A DNA stretch of 35,777 nucleotides from positions 1 through 35,777 of the forward strand of contig JAISMK010000071.1 in assembly GCA_031276785.1 (NCBI GenBank), read 5' to 3'. A program made the position numbers and the translations under genes. How positions within the stretch are numbered: the first letter of the stretch is position 1; each line of letters opens with the position of its first letter. The notes beneath the pieces are model-generated. The model did not search any database. It saw only the letters and a program-made list of their open reading frames with translations, and was not told where the DNA came from. This document shows, in pieces, positions 7,270 to 30,265 of the stretch. The DNA is from Desulfovibrio sp. Lineage in GTDB: Bacteria; Desulfobacterota; Desulfovibrionia; Desulfovibrionales; Desulfovibrionaceae.

Positions 7270-7755
7270 ATGCCTATGGTACCCATTCCTCCCATTGTCG
7301 CCGGGGATGAAATTGTCAATCACGGGCCGAAAATTTTTGAAGACATCCAGGCGCGTCCCGGCGAAAAGGCGCTCATCACCATGCATACGGTTCCCTTTGA
7401 AGGCTCAGTCGGCCTGATCAACATGCTGACCGCGACCCGTCTGGTGCGCAAGGGCTATGACTTCACCATGCTGCTCTATGGTCCCGGCGTACTCATGGCT
7501 TCCAATACCCGGGGCTTCCCCAAGGTGGGGGACGAGGGCTTCGGAGGCAACCTGGCCTATAACAGGCAGCTTGCTACAATTATGAAAGAAGGCGGAAAGA
7601 TTCTGGCCTGTCGTTTCGCTATGAGCGCCCTGTACGGCATGCGCGAGGCGGACCTCCTGCCCGGCGTTCAGGCCATCCATCCCCTGGATGTCCTGGACTG
7701 CAGTCTTCTCCACCAGCGCGCCGGCGCCCTGATTATCTCAACATGGACCGTATAA
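7270..7755 (+). CDS. MSMEG_0572/Sll0783-family nitrogen-starvation response protein
   Basis: GEKALITMHTVPFEGSVGLINMLTATRLVRKGYDFTMLLYGPGVLMA...CRFAMSALYGMREADLLPGVQAIHPLDVLD resembles this family from memory; RBS AAGGAG 6 nt before ATG. Confidence 0.8.
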   Translation: MPMVPIPPIVAGDEIVNHGPKIFEDIQARPGEKALITMHTVPFEGSVGLINMLTATRLVRKGYDFTMLLYGPGVLMASNTRGFPKVGDEGFGGNLAYNRQLATIMKEGGKILACRFAMSALYGMREADLLPGVQAIHPLDVLDCSLLHQRAGALIISTWTV

Positions 7756-7797
7756 TAAAGGTGCCATTGCAAAATAAAATGCTCTACAGGAGACTAT

Positions 7798-8667
7798 ATG
7801 GAACGCTTCGATGCAAAGCATAAAGTTAAGCGTAAAGTGTTTGATGCTCATAATCACATTGGCTTTATGGAGGGCTTTCCGTACTATGGCCTGCCGAAAC
7901 CGGTTAATCCAACGGTTTACTGTGACAACGATCGCGCTGCCAAAATCAGGCAGATGGACGCCTTGGGAGTGGAGCGGGCCATTGTCATGTCCAATTACGG
8001 CATTCCGGACGCGGCCCAGCCCTTCGGGCTGAACCCGGTCGTTCTGGAGGCCTGCGCCCATCCTGATAAACGGATTCTCGGCGGGATATGGTTTTCTCCC
8101 CTGGCCAAGATGAAGGAGGCCAATGCCCGGTCCCTGAAGCTGGCCGGAGAGCCGGGAGTCAAGGTGCTCAAAGCCACCTGCCTCTTGGGCGGAACCTGGA
8201 ATCCCGAGGATTGGGACGGGGAAACCATGGCCATGTGGGAGGACATCATTGCCGTGGGCGAAAAGTATGACCATGTTTTTCATATTCATACCAGTCCGGG
8301 CGGCGGTTCAGACGTCAGCAACGGCATTAAGTTCGTCCGCGCCTACGGCAAGCGGGTTAAAGTGCATATTGTCCATTGCGGAGGAGGGGTTTCCGGGCAT
8401 ATCAAGTTTATCCCCGAGTTTTTCAAGCTCATTCAGGAGGAGTACAAGGTATACACGGACACCTCCTGGTCCGTCGGCTTCTGTACCCGCTACCTGTTTG
8501 AGGAAATGGAAAAGCAGGGAGTGGGCGACGATCGGGTTCTGTTCTCCTCGGATGAGCCGTGGTCGGATTTCTGGAGCGAATACTACAAATTTGAAGGACT
8601 CGGGCTTTCTTCCGAACTGAAGGACAAAATATTCTGGGGAAATGCCGAGAAATTATACGGAGTGTGA
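7798..8667 (+). CDS. Amidohydrolase-2 (ACMSD-like TIM-barrel) family metal-dependent hydrolase
   Basis: FDAHNHIGFM metal-binding motif, HIHTSPGGGSD, VHIVHCGGGV, VLFSSDEPWSDFWSEY; RBS AGGAG upstream. Confidence 0.85.
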   Translation: MERFDAKHKVKRKVFDAHNHIGFMEGFPYYGLPKPVNPTVYCDNDRAAKIRQMDALGVERAIVMSNYGIPDAAQPFGLNPVVLEACAHPDKRILGGIWFSPLAKMKEANARSLKLAGEPGVKVLKATCLLGGTWNPEDWDGETMAMWEDIIAVGEKYDHVFHIHTSPGGGSDVSNGIKFVRAYGKRVKVHIVHCGGGVSGHIKFIPEFFKLIQEEYKVYTDTSWSVGFCTRYLFEEMEKQGVGDDRVLFSSDEPWSDFWSEYYKFEGLGLSSELKDKIFWGNAEKLYGV

Positions 8668-8672
8668 TTGCC

Positions 8673-8790
8673 AGGAGCAGTTCAACTTTGAAAAAGTTGA
8701 ACTGCTCTGCAAGGATTTGCCTGTGAATCCTTGCCGAGCGATGGTCGCAGGCGAGCTTTGCTCGCCGTTAAGCAACCATCTCAAAGCGAA
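8673..8790 (-). repeat. Dispersed palindromic element copy R2 (C-B-A on plus strand)
   Basis: GAGCAGTTCAACTTT-GAA-AAAGTTGAACTGCTC perfect 15-bp stem, AAGGATTTGCCTGTGAATCCTT, GGCGAGCTTTGCTCGCC. Confidence 0.9.
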
Positions 8791-8845
8791 ATTGGTCAAG
8801 GCTGGCGACGGGGTGAAAATCGTCAACTGATGCGGATGAGCGGCT

Positions 8846-10420
8846 ATGGAAATGACCTTTTTGGATTATGTCTCCCTGCACAGCGGGGGGGCCAGGGTGG
8901 CCGACAGCCAGGGCATCCGCCGGGGAGGGGCCGGGCCGGCTGATGCCGGAGCTTATCTTATCCAGGGGCGGCCTCTGATGGTTCCGGCGTTGAGTCCGTC
9001 CGCCCGCCATTCCGAGTATGCCCTTGTGCGGGAGAACCAGCGCAGCAGGCTGGAGAGGAACGGGCGCTTTCTCTGTTACCTGGACCCGGTTCCCGCCGCC
9101 GGATTTTATCAGAAAAAGACCGCCGACGGCATTCCCTACCCCCAGATCGCGCGCCTGCACGGCAAGGACTGCCTGGCCTCCACCGTAATTCAGGAATGCG
9201 TCCGCTACAGCCATCCCCGGACCCGTTGTCGCTTCTGCGCCATCGGGGCTTCTCTGGAACGGGGCGCGACCATTCTGCGCAAAACCCCCGCCCAGTTGGC
9301 CGAGGTGGCGCTGGCCGCCCGGGAACTGGACGGCGTAACTCATGTGACCCTTACGGCCGGGACCACCGCCCCGCCCGACGCCGGCGCGCTGTACCTGGCC
9401 CGCTGCGCGGCCGCGGTGCGCGAGGCCGCCGGCCTGCCGGTGGAAATCCAGTTTGAGCCGGTGCGGGACTCTTCGTCCTATGCCCTTTTCCGGGAGCTGG
9501 GCGTGACGGATGTGGGTCTGCATGTGGAAAGCTTTGATCCCGCGGTGCGCCGCCGCGTTACGCCCGGCAAGGCGGAGATCGGCCTGGAGGAATATTTTGA
9601 AGCCTTTGCCCTGGCGGTTGACGTGTTCGGACGCAACAAGGTCAGCACTTACGTCATTCTCGGGCTGGGGGAGAACGAGCGGCTGACTCTGGAAGGATGC
9701 GCCCGGGCGGCGGCCTTGGGCGTGTATCCCATTGTGGTGCCTCTGCGCCCTCTGGTGGATTCCTGTTTTGCCCGGGCCAAACCCGTGGATCCCAAATACC
9801 TGGAGCGAATGTACCGGGCGCTGGGCCGTATCCTGCAAGAAAACGGATTGGCCGCAGAGTATAGTTCAGCGGGGTGTGCCCGTTGCAAGGCATGTTCTTT
9901 GCTGCAATTTACGGAACAGGAGCAGACTGCCGCCCAGCTTGGAAAAGACATAAACGCTGATAAAAAAGATATAAATATCCGTATTGCCGAAGATGAACGT
10001 GATAAAGATAGTTATATGCAAATACGCCATAGGGTTTTTGTGGAGGAACAAAAAATATTTCCCATATGCGACAAGGATGATCATGACGATGCCGCTGTTT
10101 ATATCCTTGCCCGCGTGCGGGGTGTTGCCGCCGGCGGTGTACGCTGCTACCCGCGCGGAGGCGGAGTCTGGTTCGGAGGCAGGCTGGCCGTACTCCCGGA
10201 ATTTCGGCAGGGATTCAATCTGGGCGTCCTGCTGGTGCGCGAGGCTGTGGACGTGATGCGCCGGACGCCCGGCGTCCGGCGCTTTCGCGCCGCCGTGCAG
10301 GACAGGAATGTGCGCTTCTTCTCCCGCCTGGGCTGGGAAAAACGGGGCAGGCCCTTTCTCTGGCACGGCTGGAAACATCAAATCATGGAATATCCGCTAT
10401 GCAAGAAGACGGGACAATGA
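8846..10420 (+). CDS. MSMEG_0568-family radical SAM protein fused to MSMEG_0567/Sll0786-like GNAT acetyltransferase
   Basis: N-terminal rSAM with CVRYSHPRTRCRFC (CX9CX2C) and ILGLGE; C-terminal GNAT-like YMQIRHRVFVEEQKIF...LAVLPEFRQGFNLGVLLVREAVD...FFSRLGWEKRG. Single continuous ORF. Confidence 0.82.
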   Translation: MEMTFLDYVSLHSGGARVADSQGIRRGGAGPADAGAYLIQGRPLMVPALSPSARHSEYALVRENQRSRLERNGRFLCYLDPVPAAGFYQKKTADGIPYPQIARLHGKDCLASTVIQECVRYSHPRTRCRFCAIGASLERGATILRKTPAQLAEVALAARELDGVTHVTLTAGTTAPPDAGALYLARCAAAVREAAGLPVEIQFEPVRDSSSYALFRELGVTDVGLHVESFDPAVRRRVTPGKAEIGLEEYFEAFALAVDVFGRNKVSTYVILGLGENERLTLEGCARAAALGVYPIVVPLRPLVDSCFARAKPVDPKYLERMYRALGRILQENGLAAEYSSAGCARCKACSLLQFTEQEQTAAQLGKDINADKKDINIRIAEDERDKDSYMQIRHRVFVEEQKIFPICDKDDHDDAAVYILARVRGVAAGGVRCYPRGGGVWFGGRLAVLPEFRQGFNLGVLLVREAVDVMRRTPGVRRFRAAVQDRNVRFFSRLGWEKRGRPFLWHGWKHQIMEYPLCKKTGQ

Positions 10421-10836
10421 GCGTGCAGGCCAGGCACAGGGAAGGAGCGGTATTTGAGCTGTCCGCCGGACCCTTTGCCGCCCTCTCCGACAACAGCGCG
10501 GAATACGGGGGAACGGACAACGGTCCCCGGCCTTCGGAACTGCTGCTCTGGGCTGTTTCTTCCTGCCTGGGCCAGTCCATTCGCTACATGGCTCAGAGAA
10601 TGCGTAAAAATATTGAGGGACTGACCTTGGATGTGTCCGGCATCAAGGATCCTGGCAATTTTCGTTTCCGTGAAATCCGGGTGCGCCTGCGGACGACCGG
10701 AGACATTCAGGAACTCCGGAAGGTTCTCCGACTGGCCAAAAAATATTGCTTTGTCTCCAACAGTCTTGCAGTCCCCGTCAGCTATGAAGTTGTCGGAGAG
10801 GAAGAGGAAAGGGCCTACGACAACGAAAGCGGATAA
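10399..10836 (+). CDS. OsmC-family protein
   Basis: PSELLLWAVSSCLGQSIRYMAQRM and KYCFVSNSLAVPVSYEV: the two conserved cysteines of the OsmC fold. Confidence 0.78.
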   Translation: MQEDGTMSVQARHREGAVFELSAGPFAALSDNSAEYGGTDNGPRPSELLLWAVSSCLGQSIRYMAQRMRKNIEGLTLDVSGIKDPGNFRFREIRVRLRTTGDIQELRKVLRLAKKYCFVSNSLAVPVSYEVVGEEEERAYDNESG

Positions 10837-11725
10837 CCCCTTGCGCGCGGCGCGGAAACTGCGGACTCCCTGCCTGTGGGGGGAGCTGTATCTGCCTTCC
10901 GGGGATCAGGACAAGCTGGCCGCCGTGGTCATCCTGAGCAGCAGCGCGGGAGTGTGCGACATCAGGGAACGCTATTATGCCGGTTTTTTCGCTTCCCGGG
11001 GGGTTGCCGCCCTGGCGGTGGACAGTTTTGGCCCGCGCGGCATAACGGAGACCATAACCGACCAGTCCCGGCTGGCGGAGGATGCTATGGAGAAGGATGC
11101 CTACGCGGCCTTTGCCCTGCTCTGCGCCGAGGAGAGGGTGGACTGCCGGAAGATAGCCCTCATGGGTGTTTCCCTGGGCGGCCTTGCGGTCCTGCGCACG
11201 GCCCTGACTGTCCGCAGAAGGATGTTCGCCCGGCCGGAACGGGATTTCGCGGCCCGCGCCGCCCTGGTGCCGCCCTGCCACATCCAGCAGAGGGATGCCC
11301 GCACGGACGGCAGGCCCCTGCTTGTCCTGCTGGCGGAGGAAGATGATTATACCGGCGTCGTCCAGCCTCTGATGTATGTGCGGCGTATGCGGGAGGCCGG
11401 CCCGGCGGACATCGTCCTGCGCGTATACCCCGGGGCCGGGCACTGCTGGGAGCTGGCCGGGCGGCCTGTTTTTCTGGAAGCGGCGGAAAACTATTCCGGC
11501 TGTCTGTGGTGGCAGGAGGACGACGGCCGGCTTACGGAGGCGGACAGCGGCCGGAGCATGGCGCAGGAGGAATTTGTCCTCCGGCGGCGGGAATTTTGCG
11601 CTCTGGGAGCCCATGCGGGCGGGGGCGGCAGGGAAATCAAACAGCGGGCGGCGGAAGATATCCTTGCCTTTCTGGAAGAACGGGCGGGATTTTCCGGGGC
11701 TGTCCTCGGGCGGGAGCGGACATGA
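10784..11725 (+). CDS. Dienelactone hydrolase-like alpha/beta hydrolase
   Basis: GVSLGGLAVLR nucleophile elbow, LLVLLAEEDDYTG acid region, VYPGAGHCWEL histidine. Start assigned to ATG overlapping the OsmC 3' end. Confidence 0.75.
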   Translation: MKLSERKRKGPTTTKADNPLRAARKLRTPCLWGELYLPSGDQDKLAAVVILSSSAGVCDIRERYYAGFFASRGVAALAVDSFGPRGITETITDQSRLAEDAMEKDAYAAFALLCAEERVDCRKIALMGVSLGGLAVLRTALTVRRRMFARPERDFAARAALVPPCHIQQRDARTDGRPLLVLLAEEDDYTGVVQPLMYVRRMREAGPADIVLRVYPGAGHCWELAGRPVFLEAAENYSGCLWWQEDDGRLTEADSGRSMAQEEFVLRRREFCALGAHAGGGGREIKQRAAEDILAFLEERAGFSGAVLGRERT

Positions 11726-11943
11726 GCCGAAAGAAGGTCGCGGAAGCAGGAGGGGGGGAAGGGCCGGCCAGCCGGGCCGGGGGAACGGCCGTCATTCAGG
11801 CCAGACTCTCCCTGCTGGAAGAGAATTTCGCCCGGTTGTGTACTGTTGTCGGCAGCCTGGAAATGGAAATCCGGCTCCTGCGGGAGACGGCGGCGGCGCC
11901 TTGCGCGCGGGAAGGCTCCCTGGCGCCGCGCGCCGGGGAATGA
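11722..11943 (+). CDS. Small (73 aa) predicted helical protein of unknown function
   Basis: MSRKKVAEAGGGEGPASRAGGTAVIQARLSLLEENFARLCTVVGSLEMEIRLLRETAAAPCAREGSLAPRAGE; ATG overlaps upstream stop; helical heptad-like centre. Confidence 0.6.
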   Translation: MSRKKVAEAGGGEGPASRAGGTAVIQARLSLLEENFARLCTVVGSLEMEIRLLRETAAAPCAREGSLAPRAGE

Positions 11944-11955
11944 GGACGGAACGGC

Positions 11956-13359
11956 ATGGCGGACATCACCAGACGGATCCATCTTGTCAATGTGGGTTTG
12001 GAGGGATTCTTCCACGAGATCCGGGAACAGGGGACGCCGGCTGTGCATGTGGACTGGCGGCCGCCCGCCTCCGGGGATGTGGCCTTGATGCGTAAGATAG
12101 CCGCCCTGCGCGGCCCGGCGGTGGAAAAGGCCAATGCCGAGACCGTGGCCCGCATCAAGGCCGGCCGCCCTGTCTGGGTGGATGTCCAGCCCGCGGCCGA
12201 AGCCATTTATGGCATGGAGCGTAATGTTCTGCTGCATTCCGGGCCGCCCATTGATTTTTTCGATATGTGCGATCCTCAGCAGAGGGCGGTGGAGGCCGCC
12301 GCCATCTTTGAGGGCTGGGCGACGGATCGGGCTGGTCTCGCGGCCCGGCTGAAAAGGGGCGATATCCGGCTTCTGCCCAACTACGTCCTGGGCAGTGTGG
12401 GCGCCATGTGCGGCGTAATTTCCCCTTCCATGCCCGTGGTGGTAACCGAGAACGTCACCCGGGGCAACCGCTCCTGGACCACGTTCAACGAAGGCAAAGG
12501 CGCCGTCATCTGGATGGGCGCCTACAACGAGGAGACCTTCCGGCGCCTGCGCTGGATGCGGGACGTTCTGGCCCCCGGCCTGCGCGCCGCCTTGCGCGCC
12601 ACGGACGAGGGCATCGACATCTTTCCCATAATCGCCGAAGGCGTCCTCATGGGGGACGAGGTTCACGCCCGCAGCGCGGCCTGCACCCTTCTGCTTCTGC
12701 GCCGGCTGACGCCCCTGCTTCTGGCTGCCGATGTCGGCCGGGAAGCCATCCGGGAGATCGTCGAATTCATCGGCCGCAACAACCACTCCTTTCTGAGCCT
12801 GACCCTGACGGCCTGCAAAACCGTTGCCGACGCCGCCCACGGCCTGCCCGGCTCCACTGTGGTCACGGCCATGAGCCGCAACGGCGTGGATTTCGCCTTG
12901 CGCGTGGGAGGCATGGACGCCTGGTTCATTGCCCCCACCGCGCCCATGGACGAGGCCATTTATTATTCCGGCTACGGCCCCGAGGATGCCGCCGGCGACA
13001 TCGGCGACAGCGCCATTGTGGAAACCGTCGGCCTGGGCGGCATGATCATCGGGGCGGCTCCCAGCATCAGTTCCTTTGTGGGCGGCAGCATGCGGCATTC
13101 CCGGCGGGCCATGTCCGCCATGCGCTCTGTCTGCGCCGGGGAAAACCCGGCCTTTGCCCCCGGCTCCGTGGATTTTATGCCCGCTCCTGTGGGCATTGAC
13201 ATCCGCCAGGTCGTGCGCCTGGGGGTATCCCCCATCATTGACACCGGCGTGCTGCATAAACGTTCCGGCGTGGGACAGATCGGCACTGGCATCGCCAGGG
13301 CGCCCCTGGAAGCCTTCCGCAAGGCTCTGGCCGCCATGCCCCTGCCCCAGGAAAACTGA
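11956..13359 (+). CDS. DUF1116 family protein (YlbE/AllG-like)
   Basis: NVGLEGFFHEIREQGTPAVHVDWRPPASGD at the N-terminus and GIDIRQVVRLGVSPIIDTGVLHKRSGVGQIGTGIARAPLEAF at the C-terminus are characteristic of DUF1116. Confidence 0.82.
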   Translation: MADITRRIHLVNVGLEGFFHEIREQGTPAVHVDWRPPASGDVALMRKIAALRGPAVEKANAETVARIKAGRPVWVDVQPAAEAIYGMERNVLLHSGPPIDFFDMCDPQQRAVEAAAIFEGWATDRAGLAARLKRGDIRLLPNYVLGSVGAMCGVISPSMPVVVTENVTRGNRSWTTFNEGKGAVIWMGAYNEETFRRLRWMRDVLAPGLRAALRATDEGIDIFPIIAEGVLMGDEVHARSAACTLLLLRRLTPLLLAADVGREAIREIVEFIGRNNHSFLSLTLTACKTVADAAHGLPGSTVVTAMSRNGVDFALRVGGMDAWFIAPTAPMDEAIYYSGYGPEDAAGDIGDSAIVETVGLGGMIIGAAPSISSFVGGSMRHSRRAMSAMRSVCAGENPAFAPGSVDFMPAPVGIDIRQVVRLGVSPIIDTGVLHKRSGVGQIGTGIARAPLEAFRKALAAMPLPQEN

Positions 13360-13400
13360 AGGCCGGCGCCGAAAACCCCGCCGGCGGAAAATCCTGAGGT

Positions 13401-14354
13401 ATGCCTATGCGAGTCAAACCAATCGCGGTTGTGGCCTTCGGAGGAAACGCGATTCTGGATGCCGGGGACGACGGCTCCTTTGCCGCGCAACTGGAAAAGG
13501 CCAAAGACGCCTGCAGGCGGATATTGTCCATTCTGCACAAGGGCTATCAGCTTATTCTGGTCCACGGCAACGGTCCCCAGGTGGGCAATCTGTTGATTCA
13601 ATTTGAAAAAGCAAGCGATATCATTCCCGCCCCTCCTTTGGACGCGGCAGTGGCTTCCACCCAGGGGCTGCTCGGCCACATGCTGGAAATCAGCATGCGT
13701 TCCGTTCTGGAGGAAGACCGTATGCAGCGTGAAGTGGCCACCATCCTCACCCAGGTGGTGGTCAGCGCCGACGACCCGGCTTTTGCCCGGCCGACGAAGC
13801 CCATTGGCCCGTTTTACACCAGAGAGCAGGCGGAATCCTACCGCGCTTCCGAGGGCTGGTCCATTGCCGAGGATTCCGGCCGGGGCTGGCGGCGGGTGGT
13901 CTGCTCCCCCCAGCCTCGCAAGGTGCTGGAACTCAGCACCATCAAGTATCTGGCCGCAAGCGATACCGTGGTGATTGCCTGCGGAGGCGGAGGCATCCCG
14001 GTTAACTACCGCACGGACAGCGTTGTCGGCACGGACGCGGTTATTGACAAAGACGCCACGGCCGCCCTGCTGGCCAGGAATATCGGCGCCGACCTGTTCA
14101 TCATCCTGACCGGGGTGGATATGGTGTTTCTGGACTTCGGCAAACCCACCCAGAGACCCGTTGAAGTCATGACTGTGGAGCAGGCCGGCAAATGGCTGGC
14201 CGAAGGGCAGTTCCCCGCCGGCAGCATGGGGCCTAAAGTGCGAAGCGCGGTGGAATATGTGGAAAAGGGCGGGCTGGAGGCGATCATTACCTCCCAGAAG
14301 GGTTTGATTACGGCAATGCAGCAGGGCAGAGGCTGTACCCGGATTGTCCAGTAG
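13401..14354 (+). CDS. arcC: Carbamate kinase
   Basis: VVAFGGNAI, LILVHGNGPQVGNL, VVIACGGGGIPV, DKDATAALLARNIGADLFIILTGVDMVFLDFGKP. Confidence 0.92.
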   Translation: MPMRVKPIAVVAFGGNAILDAGDDGSFAAQLEKAKDACRRILSILHKGYQLILVHGNGPQVGNLLIQFEKASDIIPAPPLDAAVASTQGLLGHMLEISMRSVLEEDRMQREVATILTQVVVSADDPAFARPTKPIGPFYTREQAESYRASEGWSIAEDSGRGWRRVVCSPQPRKVLELSTIKYLAASDTVVIACGGGGIPVNYRTDSVVGTDAVIDKDATAALLARNIGADLFIILTGVDMVFLDFGKPTQRPVEVMTVEQAGKWLAEGQFPAGSMGPKVRSAVEYVEKGGLEAIITSQKGLITAMQQGRGCTRIVQ

Positions 14355-14425
14355 AGCATTTCGAGGCAAGGATTTGCGAGCAAATCCTTGCCGAGCAGTC
14401 CAACTTTTAAAAGTTAAACTGCTCT
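14352..14425 (+). repeat. Dispersed palindromic element copy R3 (A deleted; B-C intact)
   Basis: TAGAGCATTTCGAGGCAAGGATTTGCGAGCAAATCCTTGCCGAGCAGTCCAACTTTTAAAAGTTAAACTGCTCT; first TAG is the carbamate kinase stop codon. Confidence 0.9.
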
Positions 14426-14471
14426 GGCGTCCAGCAACAATTGAGCAACAGATGCCTGTGGCGGTGGAATA

Positions 14472-15992
14472 ATGCGATACGTCATTGTGCGGAAAAATCA
14501 GTATCAGGATTCAGTGCGCCTGATGCAGATATCCCGGCGGGCCGGCGATCTGCCCGGCGTGGACAAGGTTCTTGCCCTGCTGGGAACGGACGGCAACAAG
14601 AAAATCATCTCTGATCTGGGGCTGATGGACGCCGCTGTGCGGGAGGCTACAGCCAACGACCTGGTGATTTGCGTGGAGGCCGAATCCGGGGAGTCCGCCC
14701 TGGCGGCGGTCGCCGCCGTGGATGAGGGCCTGGGGGGAACAGGGCGGGAGGAGGATGCTTGGCGGGAACGGCCGGCCTCCATAGAGCAGGCGGTGCGGGA
14801 GATGCCGGAGGCGAATTTCGCCCTCATTTCCCTGCCTGGCCCGCTGGCCAAGCTGGATGCCCTTGTGGCCCTGGAGCAGGGCCTCCATGTCATGCTTTTT
14901 TCGGACAATATGTCTCTGGAGGACGAGCTGGAGCTGAAGCAAAGCGCGGCGGCCAGGGATCTTCTGCTGCTGGGTCCGGACTGCGGAACGGCCATTATCG
15001 ACGGCGTGGCTCTGGGTCTGGCCAATATCGTCCGGCGCGGGGAAATCGGCATCGCCGCCGCCTCCGGTACAGGCATTCAGGAAGTTGTCAGCATCATTGA
15101 CCGTTTGGGCGGCGGCATCTCCCATGCCGTAGGAGTAGGCGGGCGCGATCTCAGTGAAGCCATCGGCGGCCTGATGATGCGCCGGGCCATTGGCGCTTTG
15201 GCGCGGGACCCCGCCACCAGGCGCCTCCTCCTGCTGTCCAAGCCCGGCGCCCCGGCAGTCATGCGCGCCGTTCTGGATGAGGCGGAAAAAACCGGGCTGG
15301 AAGTTGTAGCCTGCCTGCTGGGCGCGGATACCCGGCACAGCCGTCCGGGCATGGCCCTGGTTTCCACTCTGGAAGAAGCCGCCTTCGCCTGCATGGGCAA
15401 AGAGGTCCCTCCCTTCGTCGCGGATCAGGATCTGCGGAGGCGGGCCGCGGCCCTGGATCCCGGCAGAAAATATTTGCGCGGCCTGTTCAGCGGCGGCACC
15501 CTTTGCTATGAAGCCCTGTATATTCTGAAAGACGAACTGGAGGTGGCCTCCAATATCGCCGTGCGCGCTGATTTGAAGCTGCGCGAGGGGGAAAGGGGCC
15601 GGGCTCATTGCTGCATGGATCTCGGGGAGGACGAGTTTACCCGGGGCCGGCCGCACCCCATCATAGACCATGAGCTGCGCCGGGAGTGGCTGGCGGCGAA
15701 CATGGCCGATCCGGAGGTGAAGGTCATCCTCTTCGACCTGGTACTCGGCTATGGCGCAAACCGTTCCGGGGCGGCGGATCTGGTGGCCGGCCTGTCCGGG
15801 AGGCGGGAAGGCGGTCCCCTTCTTGTGGCCCATGTCTGCGGAACGCGGTCCGATCCGCAAGGACTGGGCGAACAGGAGGATATGCTCTCCCGGGCCGGGG
15901 TTCTGCTTTTTCCAACCAATGCCCAGGCGGCGCGGGCGGCCCTGGCCGTGATCCGCCTGAACGCGGAAACGAACTGCGGAGAAAGCGCATGA
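14472..15992 (+). CDS. fdrA: FdrA-like (AllF-like) acyl-CoA synthetase-fold protein
   Basis: MRYVIVRKNQYQDSVRLMQIS, LLLLGPDCGTAIIDGVALGLANIVRRGEIGIAAASGTGIQEVVSIIDRLGGGISHAVGVGGRDLSEAIGG, GRPHPIIDHELR. Confidence 0.9.
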   Translation: MRYVIVRKNQYQDSVRLMQISRRAGDLPGVDKVLALLGTDGNKKIISDLGLMDAAVREATANDLVICVEAESGESALAAVAAVDEGLGGTGREEDAWRERPASIEQAVREMPEANFALISLPGPLAKLDALVALEQGLHVMLFSDNMSLEDELELKQSAAARDLLLLGPDCGTAIIDGVALGLANIVRRGEIGIAAASGTGIQEVVSIIDRLGGGISHAVGVGGRDLSEAIGGLMMRRAIGALARDPATRRLLLLSKPGAPAVMRAVLDEAEKTGLEVVACLLGADTRHSRPGMALVSTLEEAAFACMGKEVPPFVADQDLRRRAAALDPGRKYLRGLFSGGTLCYEALYILKDELEVASNIAVRADLKLREGERGRAHCCMDLGEDEFTRGRPHPIIDHELRREWLAANMADPEVKVILFDLVLGYGANRSGAADLVAGLSGRREGGPLLVAHVCGTRSDPQGLGEQEDMLSRAGVLLFPTNAQAARAALAVIRLNAETNCGESA

Positions 15993-17434
15993 ACGCCCAG
16001 GAAGAATTCCGGCAGGTCTTCGGCCCCGCGGTGTCCTTTGACCGTCAGATTATGGACAGCTATGACCACGATGCCGGCGAGATGCCCAGGGCGCTTATGT
16101 CTCTGGTCCGGCGCCGGCCGGACATGGTGGTGCTGGCCCGCAGCCGCGAGGATGTGGCCAGGGCGTTGGATCTGGCCAGGAAATACGGCCTGCCCCTCAC
16201 CCCCAGAGGGCAGGCCACCTCCGGCTACGGGGGGAGCATCCCCGCCAGGGGGGGCATTGTTCTGGATCTGTGTTCCTTCAACGCCCTTCTGCGGCTGGAC
16301 GTCCCCAACTCCTGGGCTGACGTGGAGCCGGGCATTGTCTGGGAGGAGCTTTCCCGCGCCCTTGCCCCCCACGGCCTGGACAACCGCGTCTGCCCGACCA
16401 GCGCCCCCTCCTCCACAGTGGGCGGCTGGTTCTCCATGGGCGGCATGGGCATCGGGAGTTTCGCCTATGGCTCGTTTTTGGATAATGTTCTGGAAATAGA
16501 CGTCCTGGCCTTTGACGGAACGCTCCATACCCTGAGCGGCGGGGACGCGGCTCTTTTTTACCAGACCTGCGGCGCCCTCGGCATAGTGGTCCGTCTGCGC
16601 CTTGCCTGCCGGGCGGCGGGCACTCCATTCACCCCGGCCGTCAGCCTGCCGGACGCCTCCGGCGTCATCCGCTTTCTGGACCTGGCCGGCCGGGATCTGC
16701 CCGTCTACTCCGCCTGCGTCCAGTCCGCCGGTTATTGTGAGCTGCGTGCCCGGGCAGAGGGGAAGGCCCCGCCCATATCCTCCGGCTTTATGGTGTCCCT
16801 GGCCCTCCTGGGCGCCGCGGACGGCGGGAGCGTCGCCGCCCTGGCCTCCGGCTGCGGCGGAAGCCTGCTGGACGAGGCCGTGGGCCGGGCGACCTGGGCG
16901 GACCGCTACTATCCAATGCGCCTGAAAAAGGCCGGGCCTTCGCTCCTGGCCGGCGAAAGCGTCATTCCCTTTGACGGCTTTGCCGGAGCCTGGGAGGATC
17001 TGCGGAAAACCCTGGGCGCTGACGGTTTCGGCCTGGAGGCCCATGCCGTCAGGGGCAGGCGTCTGGCGGTTCTGACCTATTGCCTGGACAATGCCAGGGA
17101 TTTTCTCTATCCCCTCCGCCTGGCCAAAGCCCTGATCCCCCTGCGGGTGGCCGCCCGTCACGGGGGCGGGCCCTATGCCTCCGGCATGTGGCTGGCCGCT
17201 CTGGCTCGGTCCCTGTACGGGAAGGAAAAATACCGGCGGGCGCTGGCCTTCAAGAGGCGGACCGACGATGGGGATCTCCTCAACCCCGGCACTCTGGAAG
17301 GCCCGCGCCTGCCCTTTACCCCCTTCAATCTGTCCCGCTGCCTGCTGGCCGGCGCCCGCATCGCCGCGCCCGTCGCGGCTCGCCTGACCTGCGCCAATAC
17401 CCGCCTGGACAGGCGGCAGGAGGACCGGCCATGA
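15989..17434 (+). CDS. FAD-binding (GlcD/VAO-like) oxidoreductase
   Basis: RRRPDMVVLARSREDVARALDLARKYGLPLTPRGQATSGYGGSIPARGGIVLDL...VWEELSRAL...CPTSAPSSTVGGWFSMGGMGIGS: PCMH-type FAD-binding domain. Confidence 0.88.
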   Translation: MNAQEEFRQVFGPAVSFDRQIMDSYDHDAGEMPRALMSLVRRRPDMVVLARSREDVARALDLARKYGLPLTPRGQATSGYGGSIPARGGIVLDLCSFNALLRLDVPNSWADVEPGIVWEELSRALAPHGLDNRVCPTSAPSSTVGGWFSMGGMGIGSFAYGSFLDNVLEIDVLAFDGTLHTLSGGDAALFYQTCGALGIVVRLRLACRAAGTPFTPAVSLPDASGVIRFLDLAGRDLPVYSACVQSAGYCELRARAEGKAPPISSGFMVSLALLGAADGGSVAALASGCGGSLLDEAVGRATWADRYYPMRLKKAGPSLLAGESVIPFDGFAGAWEDLRKTLGADGFGLEAHAVRGRRLAVLTYCLDNARDFLYPLRLAKALIPLRVAARHGGGPYASGMWLAALARSLYGKEKYRRALAFKRRTDDGDLLNPGTLEGPRLPFTPFNLSRCLLAGARIAAPVAARLTCANTRLDRRQEDRP

Positions 17435-18612
17435 ATACTCGGGAAAATTATCCCCGCCGGGCGGAACAAGCCCTTTCCCCCCTTTCCGCCGAGGCGGCGG
17501 ATACCTGCGCCCGTTGCGGCTTCTGCAAAATACACTGCCCCACCTATCCCTTTGGCGGCGGATTTGAAACCTATTCCCCCAGGGCCAGGCTTCATTTCCT
17601 GCGGGCCTATTGCCAGGGCCGGGAAAAGCTGACCCCGGAATGGGTGGATCGCCTGTACCGCTGCACTTCCTGCGAGCGCTGCGAGGCGGTGTGCCAGACC
17701 GGCATTCCCCTGGTCCGGCTGTGGGAAGACATCCGGGCGGAAAGCGTGCGCAGGGGCCTGGGCCCGATGCCGGCCCACAAACGCGTCAGGGAGATGGCGG
17801 AAAAGTTCGGCAACCCTTACGGTGAAGATCCCTCCCGCCAGACCCATTGGCTCACCCCTGAACATACCCCCGCGCCGGAAGCGGAGACGCTGCTTTTCGG
17901 CGGCTGCACCGGAACGTACAAAATGCCCGGCATGCTGCGGACCGGAGTGGCCGTTCTGTCCCGCCTCGGCTTTGCCTTTACCTACGCCGGAGGCGAAGAA
18001 TGCTGCTGCGCCAGCCCCCTGCTGCGCACTGGGCAGGTGGACGCCGCCCTGTCCCTAATTGCCCGCAATCTCGATCTGTTCGCCCGCCGCAAGACGCGCC
18101 TTATCATCACGCCCTGCGGCGGCTGCTCCAAAACCCTGAAGAAGGATTATCCGCTCTACGCCCGGCGGTTGGGCAAACCCTTTGATATTCAGGTGATGCA
18201 TTTTTCCGAACTCTATGTGCGCCTGCTGCGGGAGGGCGGGTTGAAGCCCTCCCGGCCGGTGGACAAAACCGTGACCTTCCATGATCCCTGCCACCTGGGA
18301 CGCTCCCAGGGGCTGTTCCGGGAGCCGCGGGAGATCCTGGCGGCGATACCGGGCCTGCGCCTGACGGAGATGCCGGGAAACCGGGAGGCGTCACGTTGCT
18401 GCGGGGCCGGGGGCGGGGTGAAGGCCAATTATCCGCAGATGGCCGGGGACATTGCCAGAGACCGCCTGAGGGAGGCCGAGGCCACCGGCGCCGACTGTCT
18501 GGTGACCATGTGTCCCTTCTGTATGGGAAGTTTTAAACAGGCCATTGAGGAAAGCGGATCCTCCATCCAGTTGTGCGGCCTGGAGGAACTGCTTTGGGCC
18601 TCCCTGGAGTAG
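17431..18612 (+). CDS. GlcF-like (Fe-S)-binding protein with CCG domains
   Basis: CARCGFCKIHCP and CTSCERCEAVCQ 4Fe-4S motifs plus two cysteine-rich (CCG) domains (EECCCASPLL, SRCCGAGGG). Confidence 0.9.
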   Translation: MNTRENYPRRAEQALSPLSAEAADTCARCGFCKIHCPTYPFGGGFETYSPRARLHFLRAYCQGREKLTPEWVDRLYRCTSCERCEAVCQTGIPLVRLWEDIRAESVRRGLGPMPAHKRVREMAEKFGNPYGEDPSRQTHWLTPEHTPAPEAETLLFGGCTGTYKMPGMLRTGVAVLSRLGFAFTYAGGEECCCASPLLRTGQVDAALSLIARNLDLFARRKTRLIITPCGGCSKTLKKDYPLYARRLGKPFDIQVMHFSELYVRLLREGGLKPSRPVDKTVTFHDPCHLGRSQGLFREPREILAAIPGLRLTEMPGNREASRCCGAGGGVKANYPQMAGDIARDRLREAEATGADCLVTMCPFCMGSFKQAIEESGSSIQLCGLEELLWASLE

Positions 18613-18730
18613 GCCTTAAGGCCGGCAGGGCCGGCGGCGCGGCCGTCCCCCGGCGGGAGGGAAGGCCGCAAGGGTGGGCGCGCATGATCTTTGCGGAAAA
18701 ACGCCCGGAAAAAGCAGACGGAGAACGTCC

Positions 18731-19699
18731 GTGGCTGACGGCTTGGATCTTTACGCTATTGCCGAGGCCCTGCGCGGCTCGGAGGAATTCAGCAACAAAC
18801 GCCGCATTCCTTCCGTTGCCGGAATGTTCGCGGCTCTGGGCCAGGCTTTCGGCTTCAGAAACGGCGATGACGCCGCGCTGATTCCTCGGAACGGGGAATT
18901 CCTGCTCCTGGCCTGCGAGGGGATCCGGGCGGATCTGGTGCGGGAGGATCCCTATCTTGCGGGGCGTTGCGCGGTACAGGCCAATGTCAATGACATCTAC
19001 GCCATGGGCGGCTACCCCCTGGCCCTGGTGGATGCCGTCGGCGCTCCGGAGGAGGAGGTTGTCCGGCGCATCAGCCTGGGAATGCGGGATAACGCCGCGC
19101 GCTACAGAGTGCCGGTGGTCGGCGGGCACCTGCTGCTGACCAGAGAGGACTATTCCGTGTCCCTGGCCGTTCTGGGGCGGGCCGCGCGCTGCATTTCCAG
19201 TTTTGACGCCCGTCCGGAAGACCGCCTGCTGCTTGTCCGCAGGGACAACGGCATCCGGGTGGAAGGGCGGCGTTTCTGGAACTGCACCCTGCCCGAGGAC
19301 GACGCTTCTCTGCTCTCCAACCTGGAGCTTCTCCCCCGTTGCGCGGAAAGCGGGCTGGTGAAGGCCGGGAAGGATGTGAGCATGTCCGGCATTGCCGGAA
19401 CCTCCCTGATGCTGGCGGAAGGCTCCGGGATCGGCCTCAGCCTGTTTCTGGACGAGATTGCCGTGCCCGCCGCCTTTACGCTGTCCGAATGGCTGCTGGC
19501 ATTCCATTCTTATGGTTTTCTGCTGGCCGTGGCCCCAGGCAAGTTGGATCGCGTCCGGGATCTTTTTTCCGGCCGGGGATTGCGCGCGGCGGTAATCGGC
19601 GAGTTTTGCGAGGATCGCCGGGTCTGGCTGTGCAGCGGCCGGGAACGGAGCCTTCTCTGGGATCTTTCCTTGGAGCCTTTTGCCGGGGCGGGAGGGTGA
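18731..19699 (+). CDS. AIR-synthase (PurM)-superfamily protein, Sll0787-like
   Basis: GDDAALIPRNGEFLLLACEGIRADLVREDPYLAGRCAVQANVNDIYAMGGYPLALVDAV...VVGGHLL: PurM N-domain. GTG start at 18731 or upstream ATG at 18674. Confidence 0.82.
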   Translation: MADGLDLYAIAEALRGSEEFSNKRRIPSVAGMFAALGQAFGFRNGDDAALIPRNGEFLLLACEGIRADLVREDPYLAGRCAVQANVNDIYAMGGYPLALVDAVGAPEEEVVRRISLGMRDNAARYRVPVVGGHLLLTREDYSVSLAVLGRAARCISSFDARPEDRLLLVRRDNGIRVEGRRFWNCTLPEDDASLLSNLELLPRCAESGLVKAGKDVSMSGIAGTSLMLAEGSGIGLSLFLDEIAVPAAFTLSEWLLAFHSYGFLLAVAPGKLDRVRDLFSGRGLRAAVIGEFCEDRRVWLCSGRERSLLWDLSLEPFAGAGG

Positions 19700-20460
19700 A
19701 GGCTCTGGAACCGGCCTGGGGGCGGACAAGCCGGTTCTATCTGCCCAACGAGGATGCCGCGGCGATCCGGTCCGCTCTGGGCGCTCTGGATGCCTTGCCG
19801 GAAAATCCGGTTTTCGTGGGAGGTTCCGGCATGGTTCTGCTGGAAGCCGCCCGGATGCTCTCCCCGGCGGCCTCCAGCCGCTATGTGGACATTGCAGCCT
19901 TCCAGTGCGCGTATTTCAGGCGTCTGCGCGACGCCTTGGCCGGGTGCGCCACGCCAGCCGCGTTGCGCCGCTGGTTCGCCCGTAAGGTCTATCCGGAGAT
20001 GCGCGGCCATTTTTTGGCCCGGGGCAGGGAATACGCGCTGCCCCAGGTCTGGCGCGCCCTGAGGGACATTTTCCGATGCCGCTTTTTTTTTGAGCAGGGG
20101 GCCTTTCTCGCCGCCCGGAGTGCGGCCGGCCGCGCGCTGGCGGCGCGGGAAGACATAGCCGTATGGCTGGCCGGCGCAAGGACCAGGCACGATTTCATAT
20201 ATCTGAGCAATGTCCCCGACTATCTGGATCCGGAAAAGGCGGAAGTATTGTTCGCGGCCTGCGCCCTGCACCGGGCGCCGACCTATGTGGCGCTGACCTC
20301 GGCCTGCGCGGATCAGCCGGCCGCGCACGCCGCCTGGCGGGCGGCCGGCTTCGCGCCCCATGCCTGCTGCGGGCGGCTGAACGCCCTGAACCGCGGTCTG
20401 GGTTCCGCCCTGCGCCGGGACTGGAACAGACCCGGAGAAATTTTTTTGCTTCTGCCTTGA
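19696..20460 (+). CDS. Conserved-cluster protein of unknown function (possibly degenerate DUF3419/methyltransferase-like fold)
   Basis: GTG start overlaps upstream TGA; FVGGSGMVLLEAARML...YVDIAAFQCAYFRRL...HDFIYLSNVPDYLDPEKAEVLF vaguely resembles a Rossmann methyltransferase; no confident family. Confidence 0.55.
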   Translation: MKALEPAWGRTSRFYLPNEDAAAIRSALGALDALPENPVFVGGSGMVLLEAARMLSPAASSRYVDIAAFQCAYFRRLRDALAGCATPAALRRWFARKVYPEMRGHFLARGREYALPQVWRALRDIFRCRFFFEQGAFLAARSAAGRALAAREDIAVWLAGARTRHDFIYLSNVPDYLDPEKAEVLFAACALHRAPTYVALTSACADQPAAHAAWRAAGFAPHACCGRLNALNRGLGSALRRDWNRPGEIFLLLP

Positions 20461-20472
20461 GCGTTGCGGGGT

Positions 20473-20535
20473 CAGAGCAGTTTAACTTTGAAAAAGTTGG
20501 ACTGCTCGGCAAGGATTTGCCTGCGCATCCTGGCA
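20473..20535 (-). repeat. Dispersed palindromic element copy R4 (partial, C-B)
   Basis: CAGAGCAGTTTAACTTTGAAAAAGTTGGACTGCTCGGCAAGGATTTGCCTGCGCATCCTGGC. Confidence 0.85.
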
Positions 20536-20560
20536 ATGGAATAAAACAAGGAGAAAGGGC

Positions 20561-21529
20561 ATGATTTTCCCTCCAGCCTTCGGGCGGCCGTTCCGCGGGC
20601 TTCTGTCCGCGCTTTCGCTGGCCTGCGCTCTGGCCGCTCCAGCGGGCGCGGCCTCTTCCGCCCTGCGTCTGGCCTATCTGCAGAACGACCTGCACCACCT
20701 GGCCCTGTGGGTTGGCATGGAAAAGGGTTTTTTCGCCCAGGAGGGGCTGCGGGTGGAGATTGCCGGTATTTTTCGCTCCGGCCCGGAAATGATGACGGCC
20801 TTTGGCGCCGGCGCGCTGGACGCGGCCTATGTGGGCGAGGCTCCGGCAGCCATTGCGGCCGTCCGGGGCACCGCCCGGATCCGGATTCTCGCCCAGGCCA
20901 ACACGGAAGGTTCCTCCCTGGTCTGGTCGGAAAAGCCTCCGGCCGGTAGGAGGCAGGCCCTCATTGCCGTGCCCGGCGCCGGCGGCGTGCAGGATCTCCT
21001 TTTGCGCAAGGCTCTCCCCCTGCTGGGCCTGGAGGCCAAGGATGTGGAGGTCCTGGTCCTCAGCCCGCCGGAAATGCTGTCCGCGCTGGCTGTGGGCGAA
21101 ATTGACGCCTTTGTGGCCTGGGAACCATATCCCGCCAAGGCCGTGGCCACGGGCATAGGGCGGGCGGCGGCCTCATCCTCCCGCATCTGGCCCGGCCACC
21201 TGTGCTGCGCCCTGGTCATAACTGAAAAACTGGCCAAGGAGAGGCCGGGGGACGTCCGGACTCTGCTGCGGGTCCACCGGCGCGCCACGCGTTTTCTGGC
21301 GGAGAACCGGGAGGAATCCGTGGCCATAGCCGTCCGCTGGACAGGGATGGAAGCATCCGTGATCCGGCGGGCCATGGATAACGTCATCTACACGGACGAG
21401 CCGGATATTCCGGGCCTGGAGGCCTACCTTTCCTTCCTGCGGGATCTGGGCATCATTGCCCTGGACGATCTGCCGGGTTTCGCCCGCGCCCTGGTGGCCT
21501 GGGAATTTCAGGACAGGGGCGGGCGGTGA
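20561..21529 (+). CDS. NMT1/SsuA/TauA-type ABC transporter substrate-binding protein
   Basis: Signal peptide, LRLAYLQNDLHHLALWVGMEKGFFAQEGLRVEIAGIFRSGPEMMTAFGAGALDAAYVGEAPAAIAAV. Confidence 0.88.
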   Translation: MIFPPAFGRPFRGLLSALSLACALAAPAGAASSALRLAYLQNDLHHLALWVGMEKGFFAQEGLRVEIAGIFRSGPEMMTAFGAGALDAAYVGEAPAAIAAVRGTARIRILAQANTEGSSLVWSEKPPAGRRQALIAVPGAGGVQDLLLRKALPLLGLEAKDVEVLVLSPPEMLSALAVGEIDAFVAWEPYPAKAVATGIGRAAASSSRIWPGHLCCALVITEKLAKERPGDVRTLLRVHRRATRFLAENREESVAIAVRWTGMEASVIRRAMDNVIYTDEPDIPGLEAYLSFLRDLGIIALDDLPGFARALVAWEFQDRGGR

Positions 21530-22281
21530 TGGTCCGGTCCTGCCTCGCCTTTCTCCTGCTGCTGGCTCTGTGGGAAATTGTCTGTCTGGCCGGGGTTCTG
21601 CCCTCCGCTCTGCTCCCTTCGCCGCCGGAGGCGGCGGCGGCCTTCCGGGAGCTTTTATCCGTGGGCATGCCGCCCGGCCGTCTGCTCGCCGGCCATGCCC
21701 TGCACAGCCTGGCGCGGGTTCTGGCCGGAGTCGGCCTGGCCGTGCTTCTGGGCGTGCCCGTGGGACTGGCCCTGGGCGCCTCCGGAACATTCCGGAGCTT
21801 CTTCCTGCCCCTGATCAATTTTTTCCGCCCCATTCCGCCCCTGGCCTGGATTCCCCTGGCCATTCTCTGGTTCGGCCTGGGGTTTTTCTCTTCCGTCTAC
21901 CTCATCTTCCTGGGAGCCTTTTTCCCCATCGCCCTGGCCGCCTGTTCCGGAGTCCGCGGCGTGGACCGGCTGTATCTGGATTCGCTCCGCGTCCTCAGAG
22001 CCACGCGCCGCGACATCTGGCTGAAGGCCCTTCTGCCGGGGGCCATGCCCTCCATTGTGACCGGCGTCCGGGTGGGCTTGGGCGTGGGCTGGATGACCCT
22101 GGTGGCGGCGGAATTCGCCGGGACCAGGGGCGGCTACGGGCTGGGCTACATGATCATGACCGCCAGGGATCTTCAGCGCATTGACGAGGTGGTGGCGGGC
22201 ATGGCGGCCATAGGCCTTATCGGCCTTGGCCTGGAGTTTATCCTGGAACGCGCCGCAAGGCGCCTGCTGCGCTGGATGTGA
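21526..22281 (+). CDS. SsuC/TauC-type ABC transporter permease
   Basis: FFRPIPPLAWIPLAILWFGLGFFSSVYLIFLGAFFPIALAACSGVRGVDRLYLDSLRVLRA...GVRVGLGVGWMTLVAAEF. Confidence 0.92.
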   Translation: MMVRSCLAFLLLLALWEIVCLAGVLPSALLPSPPEAAAAFRELLSVGMPPGRLLAGHALHSLARVLAGVGLAVLLGVPVGLALGASGTFRSFFLPLINFFRPIPPLAWIPLAILWFGLGFFSSVYLIFLGAFFPIALAACSGVRGVDRLYLDSLRVLRATRRDIWLKALLPGAMPSIVTGVRVGLGVGWMTLVAAEFAGTRGGYGLGYMIMTARDLQRIDEVVAGMAAIGLIGLGLEFILERAARRLLRWM

Positions 22282-23048
22282 CTGTGGCCGCCGGCTTGCT
22301 CCTTGAGGATCTGGAGAAGAGCTGCCCGGGGCCGGGCGGGTCTCCGGCCGTCAAGGTTCTGGACAAGATCCGCTTTACCGCCAGGGCGGGCAGCATAACG
22401 GGCATTGTCGGCCTGAACGGCTGCGGCAAGACGACATTGCTGCGCATCATCGCCGGCCTGGAACCGGCGGACGCGGGCCGCATCCGGCTGGAAGGGGAAG
22501 GAGCGGGCGGAATCGGCATGGTTTTTCAGGAAGTCGCTCTCCTGCCTTGGCGCACGGTGCGGAGGAATATCTCCCTGGGGCTGGAACTGAACGGCACGCC
22601 GGAGGCGCGGCGCGGGAGGATTGTGGAGGGCTTCCTCTCCGTCTTCGGGCTGGAGGAGAACGCGGACCAATACCCCAGAGAACTTTCCGGGGGCACGCGG
22701 CAGAAAACGGCCATCGCCCGCGCCCTGGCCCCCGGGCCGGGCGTGGTACTCATGGATGAGCCGTTCAGCGCCCTGGACGCCCAGACCAGGGACGGCATGC
22801 AGAAATTCCTGCTCCGGGTTTGGACGGAGCGGCGGGACACCATCCTTTTTGTTACCCATAATATTGAAGAGGCGGTGTACATGAGCGATCAGGTCGTCAT
22901 CATCACCCCCAAGCCCGCCCGAGTGGCGGCCGTTATTCCCGTTCCCCTTCCCCGCCCCCGCGACAAGACCGGCCCGGAATGCAACCTTCTGCGCCGGGAG
23001 ATATTCTCCATCCTCCATAAGCCGGGCGCGTCCCCGCGCATGGAATAA
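22278..23048 (+). CDS. SsuB/TauB-type ABC transporter ATPase
   Basis: GLNGCGKTTLLRIIAGLEPADAGRI, LSGGTRQKTAIARALA, VVLMDEPFSALDAQTR; GTG start in ATGTGA overlap. Confidence 0.92.
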   Translation: MTVAAGLLLEDLEKSCPGPGGSPAVKVLDKIRFTARAGSITGIVGLNGCGKTTLLRIIAGLEPADAGRIRLEGEGAGGIGMVFQEVALLPWRTVRRNISLGLELNGTPEARRGRIVEGFLSVFGLEENADQYPRELSGGTRQKTAIARALAPGPGVVLMDEPFSALDAQTRDGMQKFLLRVWTERRDTILFVTHNIEEAVYMSDQVVIITPKPARVAAVIPVPLPRPRDKTGPECNLLRREIFSILHKPGASPRME

Positions 23049-27012: not shown

Positions 27013-27564
27013 CTATCCCGCCGCCGGATTTTTTTCAAGATCGCCCCAAGGGGCCTCCTCGCCGCTCGGTCTCCGGGCTTCGCGGGGAAAGGCCCGGCCG
27101 CCCTGGGCTGCGAGTTCGCGCAGGATTTCGCTGATGAAGCGGGGAAAAGCCGCCGCGCACACCGGGGACAGCTCCAGGCGCAGGCTCTTCCAGTCCATGG
27201 GCTCCATGCCCAGAACCACGGCCGCCGGGCGGCTGTCCATCATCCCGCAGCCTATGAGCACGTCCACCAGATCCACCTGGTGCTGGGAGTCGTGAAAGCC
27301 CAGGCTCTTGCGCAGATCGTCGTCCTCCAGGCGGTACAGGGCGCCCGGAGGGCCTCCGCCCAGCACGGCGTCCATGACCACAAGCCTGTCGCAGTCCGCT
27401 ATGCTCCCCATAAGCAGCCTGCCCCGCGTTCCCCCTTCCAGCAGGGTGACGTTGCCGGAAAAGGTATAGTTCCGCTCCAGATGCCGGGCGGCATGGACGC
27501 CGACGCCTTCGTCGGCATAAAGGAGGTTGCCCACTCCCAGAAGAAGGATGCGCTGTTCCGGCAT
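27013..27564 (-). CDS. Hydrogenase maturation protease (HyaD/HybD/HynC family)
   Basis: ILLLGVGNLLYADEGVGVHAARHLE, LVVMDAVLGGGPPG, HQVDLVDVL. Confidence 0.93.
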   Translation of the reverse strand: MPEQRILLLGVGNLLYADEGVGVHAARHLERNYTFSGNVTLLEGGTRGRLLMGSIADCDRLVVMDAVLGGGPPGALYRLEDDDLRKSLGFHDSQHQVDLVDVLIGCGMMDSRPAAVVLGMEPMDWKSLRLELSPVCAAAFPRFISEILRELAAQGGRAFPREARRPSGEEAPWGDLEKNPAAG

Positions 27565-27585
27565 GGGCGGCCCGTCCGGCTGGGG

Positions 27586-29259: not shown

Positions 29260-29296
29260 GGGGGCTTCTCCGTGAGCGGTGAGGATGACAACGGCC

Positions 29297-30265
29297 TTAG
29301 CGGTAGAAAGGGGTCATGTGGTCCCAGAAATCAGGCTCGGAGCATCCTATGCAGGGGTGTCCCGCGGCCACGGGCCAGTTGGTGCCGTTGAAAAGGACCT
29401 TGGGACAATTATTGTAGGTCTGCGGCCCCTTGCAGCCCAGGTTATACAGACACCAGCCCTGGCGGGCCTCCTCCGAGGAGAAGGAGTTGGCGAAGCGTCC
29501 GGCGTCGAAGTGGGGGCGGCGCTCGCAGAGTTCGTGCACGGACTTGCCGAAGAAAATGTTTGGCCGGCCGATATAGTCCAGCTCGGGCAGCGCCCCCTTG
29601 TGCTCCAGATAGTACGTTATGGTGCCCACGATGTTGATGGGGTTGGGCGGACATCCGGGAATGTTGATAAGGCCGGCGGCCTTGACCCCCAGAAAGTCAA
29701 GAGCGTCGCCGACTCCCTTGGCGCCGGTGGGGTTGGGCGCCGCCGCCTGGATGCCTCCGTAGGACGCGCAGGTGCCGTAGGCGATGACCGCCTTGGCTCC
29801 GGGCAGAACCTCTTTGTTAATGGAGAGCATGGTCCTGTTGGCGACCTTGCCGTATATGCCGTTGTCCGCCGTGGGGATGCCGCCTTCCACAATGCAGATG
29901 TAGCCGTCCGGGTTGTGGATGGCGCTGTGCAGAGCCTCTTCCGCGGCCTCGCCGGCGGCGGCCATGATGGTTTCCTGGTATTCCAGGGAAATGGCGTCAA
30001 AGAGCAGGACGTCCAGAAAGGGGGCGTTGGTGCGCAACAAGGCTTCGGAACATCCGGTACACTCCGCGTTATGCAGGTAGACCACGCAGGGGCGCCTGCC
30101 GGCTCCCCCGGTCATGGCTTTGGCCACGCGGGAGGCGTAGGCCGGGCCCATGCCCATGGCGGCGGCAACGGCCGCGCAGTAAGTGAGAAACTGGCGGCGG
30201 GTAATGCCGTGCGCCTGCAGGCGTTTTTCCACATTATCCCTGGCAAGACCAACGGCGATTCGCAT
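29297..30265 (-). CDS. hynA: [NiFe] hydrogenase small subunit with Tat signal
   Basis: [20 protein letters not shown] Tat motif, [56 protein letters not shown]. Confidence 0.95.

Follow-up and report, generated by a model that had tools for sequence, protein, structure and literature searches.

The window analysed here, a 35,777-nucleotide stretch of a Desulfovibrio sp. genome, probably carries a nitrogen-scavenging gene cluster that is related to the Nit1C nitrilase cluster and includes a carbamoyltransferase part, with allH lost in this genome from the slot where relatives keep it. Of greater value is the conserved association between Nit1C-type genes and a carbamoyltransferase, and a single metagenome-assembled genome (MAG) is poor ground for calling AllH dispensable. 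The cluster appears to be a large, nitrogen-scavenging one of anaerobic bacteria and is apparently undescribed; a limited literature search returned no report of Nit1C-type genes combined with a carbamoyltransferase.

Gene content of the cluster

The genes form a plus-strand run of ~16 kb (7270-23048; Table 1). Profile searches of the window proteins identified a Nit1C-like core, made up of a Sll0783-family protein, an MSMEG_0568 radical SAM enzyme fused to a GNAT domain and a putative sll0787 AIR-synthase-like protein, together with an AllFGH-type carbamoyltransferase and a carbamate kinase. A previous reading of the sequence alone had placed open reading frames for a 73-amino-acid protein (here p73), a DUF1116/AllG protein, a carbamate kinase and FdrA at 11722-15992. 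All four are present at those positions as part of the longer run, and the profile matches leave the last three unambiguous.

Table 1. Features of the cluster in the window, with the evidence for each assignment
Feature	Position	Strand	Evidence
MSMEG_0572/Sll0783-family protein (Nit1C ORF1 type)	7270..7755	+	TIGR04044 216 bits, cut-off 110
Amidohydro_2 metal-dependent hydrolase	7798..8667	+	PF04909 E 3.8e-19
MSMEG_0568 radical SAM enzyme fused to MSMEG_0567/Sll0786 GNAT, one ORF	8846..10420	+	TIGR04043 383 bits (cut-off 304), TIGR04045 98 bits (cut-off 68)
OsmC-like protein	10399..10836	+	PF02566 E 5.2e-20
Alpha/beta hydrolase	10781..11725	+	DLH/Peptidase_S9 matches; start uncertain, ORF opens at 10631
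p73, 73-aa helical accessory protein (predicted)	11722..11943	+	Homologues in 8 other cluster-bearing genomes
AllG/YlbE/YahG-like carbamoyltransferase subunit	11956..13359	+	PF06545 E 5.6e-72, 242 bits, cut-off 27
Carbamate kinase	13401..14354	+	TIGR00746 360 bits, above cut-off
AllF/FdrA/YahF-like subunit, shortened C-terminus	14472..15992	+	NF004760 428 bits, just under cut-off 433, model 1-497 of 555
GlcD-like FAD-dependent oxidoreductase	15989..17434	+	PF01565
CCG/Fe-S electron-transfer subunit	17431..18612	+	PF02754, Fer4_8
118-bp slot, occupied by allH in relatives; possible deletion scar	18613..18730	.	Synteny; weak remnant match
sll0787-family AIR-synthase-like protein	18731..19699	+	TIGR04049 302 bits, below NCBIfam cut-off 321; PF00586/PF02769
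orfX, predicted class-I SAM-methyltransferase-like fold	19696..20460	+	No Pfam family; AlphaFold pLDDT 90; Foldseek matches to methyltransferases, E 5e-5
SsuABC/NMT1-type ABC transporter (binding protein, permease, ATPase)	20561..23048	+	PF13379, PF00528, PF00005

The Amidohydro_2 hydrolase, 64-86% identical to its counterparts in other clusters, stands in place of the Nit1C nitrilase. The OsmC-like gene keeps its position after the radical SAM gene in most clusters, the ABC transporter genes keep the same place, and orfX is conserved in nearly all of them. We considered orfX as a hidden AllH and rejected it on the basis of its predicted fold and the lack of a Pfam match. The window AllG has 42% identity to Escherichia coli AllG and 37% to YahG, and the window FdrA, a homologue of PDB 3dmy, has 36% identity to AllF and 41% to YahF. 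Outside the cluster, minus-strand ORFs at 27013-30265 resemble the large and small subunits of a [NiFe] hydrogenase and a maturation protease; recognised by eye, they presumably fit a Desulfovibrionaceae host.

Conservation and gene order in relatives

When 84,980 species genomes were scanned with three AllGs of the cluster as queries, nine loci came up, in Desulfovibrionaceae, Anaeromyxobacter, Ca. Anammoxibacter and one unclassified MAG. Further genomes of the family were added by a separate genome search. The gene set and its order are common to at least 12 other loci in several phyla. Within a family set of 288 genomes, all 10 with a cluster-type AllG also have Sll0783, and AllG of this type occurs in none of the 275 genomes without it.

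In many Desulfovibrionaceae the cluster is split into two operons, with the order Sll0783-amidohydrolase-rSAM/GNAT-OsmC in the first and AllG-CK-FdrA-FAD-FeS-AllH-AIRs-orfX-ABC-sigma54 regulator in the second. Between them lies a module on the opposite strand, consisting of KASIII and/or an alpha/beta hydrolase, p73 and a ferredoxin. The window has its hydrolase and p73 genes on the same strand as the two operons and between them; no KASIII, ferredoxin or sigma54 regulator was found within the window. Several genomes have a GAF-type sigma54-dependent regulator directly after the cluster ABC ATPase (e.g. L065 5869-7503), and searches of the window genome for a regulator of this type gave only matches of 37-53% identity (best 46%, one internal stop). 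In genome G039 a divergent OsmC-like domain and AllG share one open frame (L017 9620-11386), possibly as a fusion. Genome G316 has Sll0783, KASIII, a p73-type protein and a ferredoxin at L092, and neither AllG nor AllH was detected in it despite a completeness rating of 100%.

AllH and its slot

The sequence-only reading had seen no DUF2877 protein in the window, and this stands, as PF11392/AllH matches none of the scanned cluster proteins. The same Pfam model found no match in the whole window genome (an 86.9% complete MAG of 183 contigs). In relatives whose AllG is 62-78% identical, the cluster has AllH in a fixed slot, which in most relatives lies between the Fe-S and AIR-synthase genes. 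AllH comes after the Fe-S gene in L013, L014, L015, L020, L021, L065, L068, L075 and L085, followed by the AIR-synthase gene where the contig continues. AllH lies after the ABC ATPase in G039 and on a separate contig in the Anaeromyxobacter MAG; it was not found in G173 and G184, whose contigs end short of the G039-type position. Each of the 13 near-complete family genomes that carry AllG carries AllH as well, and the two occur together in 15 of the 19 AllG genomes (Fisher p 7e-19), the remaining four being MAGs of 81-89% completeness. Only the window combines a completely sequenced slot with the absence of AllH both from the region directly following the transporter and, by Pfam, from the rest of the genome. 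The loss of AllH is confined to the window genome or to its assembly. The earlier proposal of a reduced or altered carbamoyltransferase can thus be kept as a possibly reduced enzyme in the window genome alone, and is not supported as an AllH-free type of enzyme, since AllH has a constant place in relatives. An altered substrate specificity is plausible, given how much the gene context differs.

The AllHs of the cluster have ~290-330 amino acids with GLTPSGDD/GHSSG-like motifs. One of them (L015 16606-17529; AlphaFold pLDDT 84) is modelled with a strand-rich N-terminal part, an all-helical C-terminal part and GLTPAGDD and GHSSG motifs; comparison of the model with PDB gave no match at E<0.001, so the fold offered no clue to what AllH does. 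By direct alignment, the slot in the window weakly matches the first ~23 codons of AllH from the nearest relative (L013), with a BLOSUM score of 42 that ranks second among 3570 window tiles and that 4 of 300 shuffles also attain. A profile HMM made from six AllH N-termini gave no significant match to the slot. The slot is a possible deletion scar, and its 3′ part (GGAGAACGTCCGTGG) may be nothing more than a ribosome-binding site with the start of the gene that follows.

A sensitive search with a nine-sequence AllH alignment did identify a DUF2877-family ORF elsewhere in the window genome, at 1-561 on the minus strand of a 4.2-kb contig (C40; L063). Its N-terminal 182 amino acids (E 4.7e-7) run off the contig edge. 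PF11392 is a 109-position model that covers part of the DUF2877 proteins, and it missed this ORF because the modelled region falls in the C-terminal part, past the contig end; N-terminal fragments of DUF2877 proteins are missed by it in the same way. A DUF2877 gene elsewhere in the genome, which the sequence-only reading had named as counting against its proposal, is present in part: nothing was found by the Pfam model and an N-terminal fragment was found on C40. 'No DUF2877' is right for the window and wrong for the genome. The C40 ORF has as neighbours a broken sigma54-regulator fragment, an SGNH-hydrolase-like ORF and a GatB-like ORF.

That this orphan protein acts as AllH in trans is possible but doubtful. 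One of its best matches, L073, follows a carbamate kinase, but the orphan is of a different DUF2877 subfamily, its best matches (L080, L073 and L029) are AllHs outside the present cluster, and its similarity to cluster AllHs is weak. In addition, the C-terminus, where the conserved motifs lie, is beyond the assembled sequence, and the sigma54 gene next to the ORF is broken. It is rather unlikely that allH is present in the organism and that the window reflects an error of metagenome assembly or strain collapse. With the genome an 87%-complete MAG spread over 183 contigs, a full AllH may lie in unassembled sequence, and the presence of AllH in every near-complete AllG genome points the same way. 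However, the slot lies within a continuous contig between intact genes, and a clean loss of ~0.8 kb of unique sequence would be an unusual assembly error.

A general decay of the pathway in this lineage, with allH as its first loss, is in our view unlikely. The absence of allH would agree with it, as would the changes in the window AllG at 9 of 204 otherwise invariant sites, compared with 0-4 in other Desulfovibrionaceae (rows for ordinary AllG loci were left out of this comparison). Yet the remaining cluster ORFs are intact, several of the AllG changes are mild (e.g. L to I), and the overall rate of change at conserved sites, 3.1%, is ordinary against 0.5-4.5% in other Desulfovibrionaceae. 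As 195 of the 204 invariant residues are retained, the window AllG is not a decayed gene.

p73

The ATG of p73 overlaps the stop codon of the upstream alpha/beta hydrolase, and the protein has homologues of 42-50% identity elsewhere, so p73 is a real gene. Its motif is ARLxxLEEHFARLCTVVGRLExE. A chance ORF had been considered while the first loci gave no homologue, and was dropped once the added genomes gave clear ones. The 73-amino-acid ORF, whose conservation had been in question, is thus conserved: it has homologues in eight further genomes, each of which also has Sll0783. They adjoin the alpha/beta hydrolase, the usual neighbour of p73, in G004, G120, G176, G177 and G322, and KASIII in G313, G316 and G323, often with a small ferredoxin next. 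The earlier suggestion that p73 serves as a substitute subunit, making a true AllH-free carbamoyltransferase, is very improbable and p73 was rejected as an AllH replacement by synteny and co-occurrence: it is conserved and directly 5′ of AllG in a window genome without a cluster-type AllH (by Pfam and alignment searches), but AllH is present in seven of the eight other p73 genomes, AllG is a neighbour of p73 in the window only, and a 73-amino-acid protein without the AllH motifs is far shorter than AllH. Its hydrolase and KASIII neighbours, together with the retention of AllH, indicate that p73 is a cluster accessory protein, which by gene order would belong to the alpha/beta-hydrolase/KASIII/ferredoxin module sitting between the two main operons.

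Predicted pathway

Enzymes of the carbamate kinase family convert carbamoyl phosphate to ATP, CO2 and NH3, and the carbamate kinase of the cluster would do so as the last step of the pathway. Upstream, the ABC transporter would import a compound, which the radical SAM/GNAT, AIR-synthase-like, amidohydrolase and FAD/Fe-S enzymes, judging from their classes only, may convert to an oxalurate-type ureido acid. Phosphorolysis of this acid to carbamoyl phosphate and an amide would be carried out by AllF-AllG, normally with AllH, as suggested by the E. coli enzyme (PMC11326118). In the window genome, where synteny shows allH to be missing from between the Fe-S and AIR-synthase genes, the remaining enzyme may be a poorly working AllF-AllG or may borrow the C40 DUF2877 protein. 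Poor function of AllF-AllG alone is suggested by E. coli, in which the enzyme without AllH retained a little activity: 1.2 of 17.7 mM oxamate in the deletion mutant and ~7% on complementation (PMC11326118). A more tentative view, for which we see a limited chance, is that the cluster is an anaerobic counterpart of Nit1C, with the same radical SAM/GNAT/AIR-synthase chemistry acting on a nitrogen compound and nitrogen release by the nitrilase replaced by ureido acid formation and phosphorolysis, conserving ATP, and that the window genome uses AllF-AllG alone.

Comparison with known systems

E. coli AllFGH with AllK (oxamic transcarbamylase; Kim and Kim 2024, PMC11326118) shares with the window homologues of AllF, AllG and carbamate kinase in one operon, and presumably the same chemistry. 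In contrast, the window has no allH, its neighbouring genes differ, with no sign in the cluster of the allantoin-pathway genes found next to allFGHK in E. coli, and its AllG (467 aa) holds a segment of ~50 amino acids that E. coli AllF has C-terminally. Residues 4-52 of the window AllG match residues 507-555 of AllF, and the window FdrA is without this tail. The split is not new, since in the E. coli yahEFG-yahI-yahJ operon YahF (515 aa, without the tail) and YahG (472 aa, with it) are built likewise. The yah operon also has a carbamate kinase and an amidohydrolase, as in the window cluster; unlike the window, it encodes a DUF2877 protein (YahE) and has no Nit1C-type genes.

With the Nit1C nitrilase cluster (BMC Evol Biol 2005, PMC1199592), the window cluster shares the Sll0783-family ORF1, the MSMEG_0568 radical SAM enzyme and the GNAT, and probably the AIR-synthase-like ORF5, for which the TIGR04049 score of 302 bits lies under the cut-off of 321. 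It differs in having the amidohydrolase, the carbamoyltransferase, the FAD/Fe-S pair and the ABC transporter, and in having neither an sll0784-type nitrilase nor an MSMEG_0570 family protein. In six cluster genomes (the window genome and five related ones), TIGR04048 (sll0784-type subfamily-1 nitrilase) gave no match over cut-off, with none among the cluster proteins, and TIGR04042 (MSMEG_0570 family, to which we assign Nit1C ORF6 of ~100 aa by assumption) gave no match. Later work has reportedly linked the Nit1C nitrilase to cyanide assimilation. What the Nit1C radical SAM, GNAT and AIR-synthase-like genes do in metabolism was left open in the 2005 description (PMC1199592). By joining such genes to a carbamoyltransferase of known product chemistry, the present cluster predicts the end of the pathway as carbamoyl phosphate, ATP and ammonia, and near-complete genomes in which this can be tested are now at hand.
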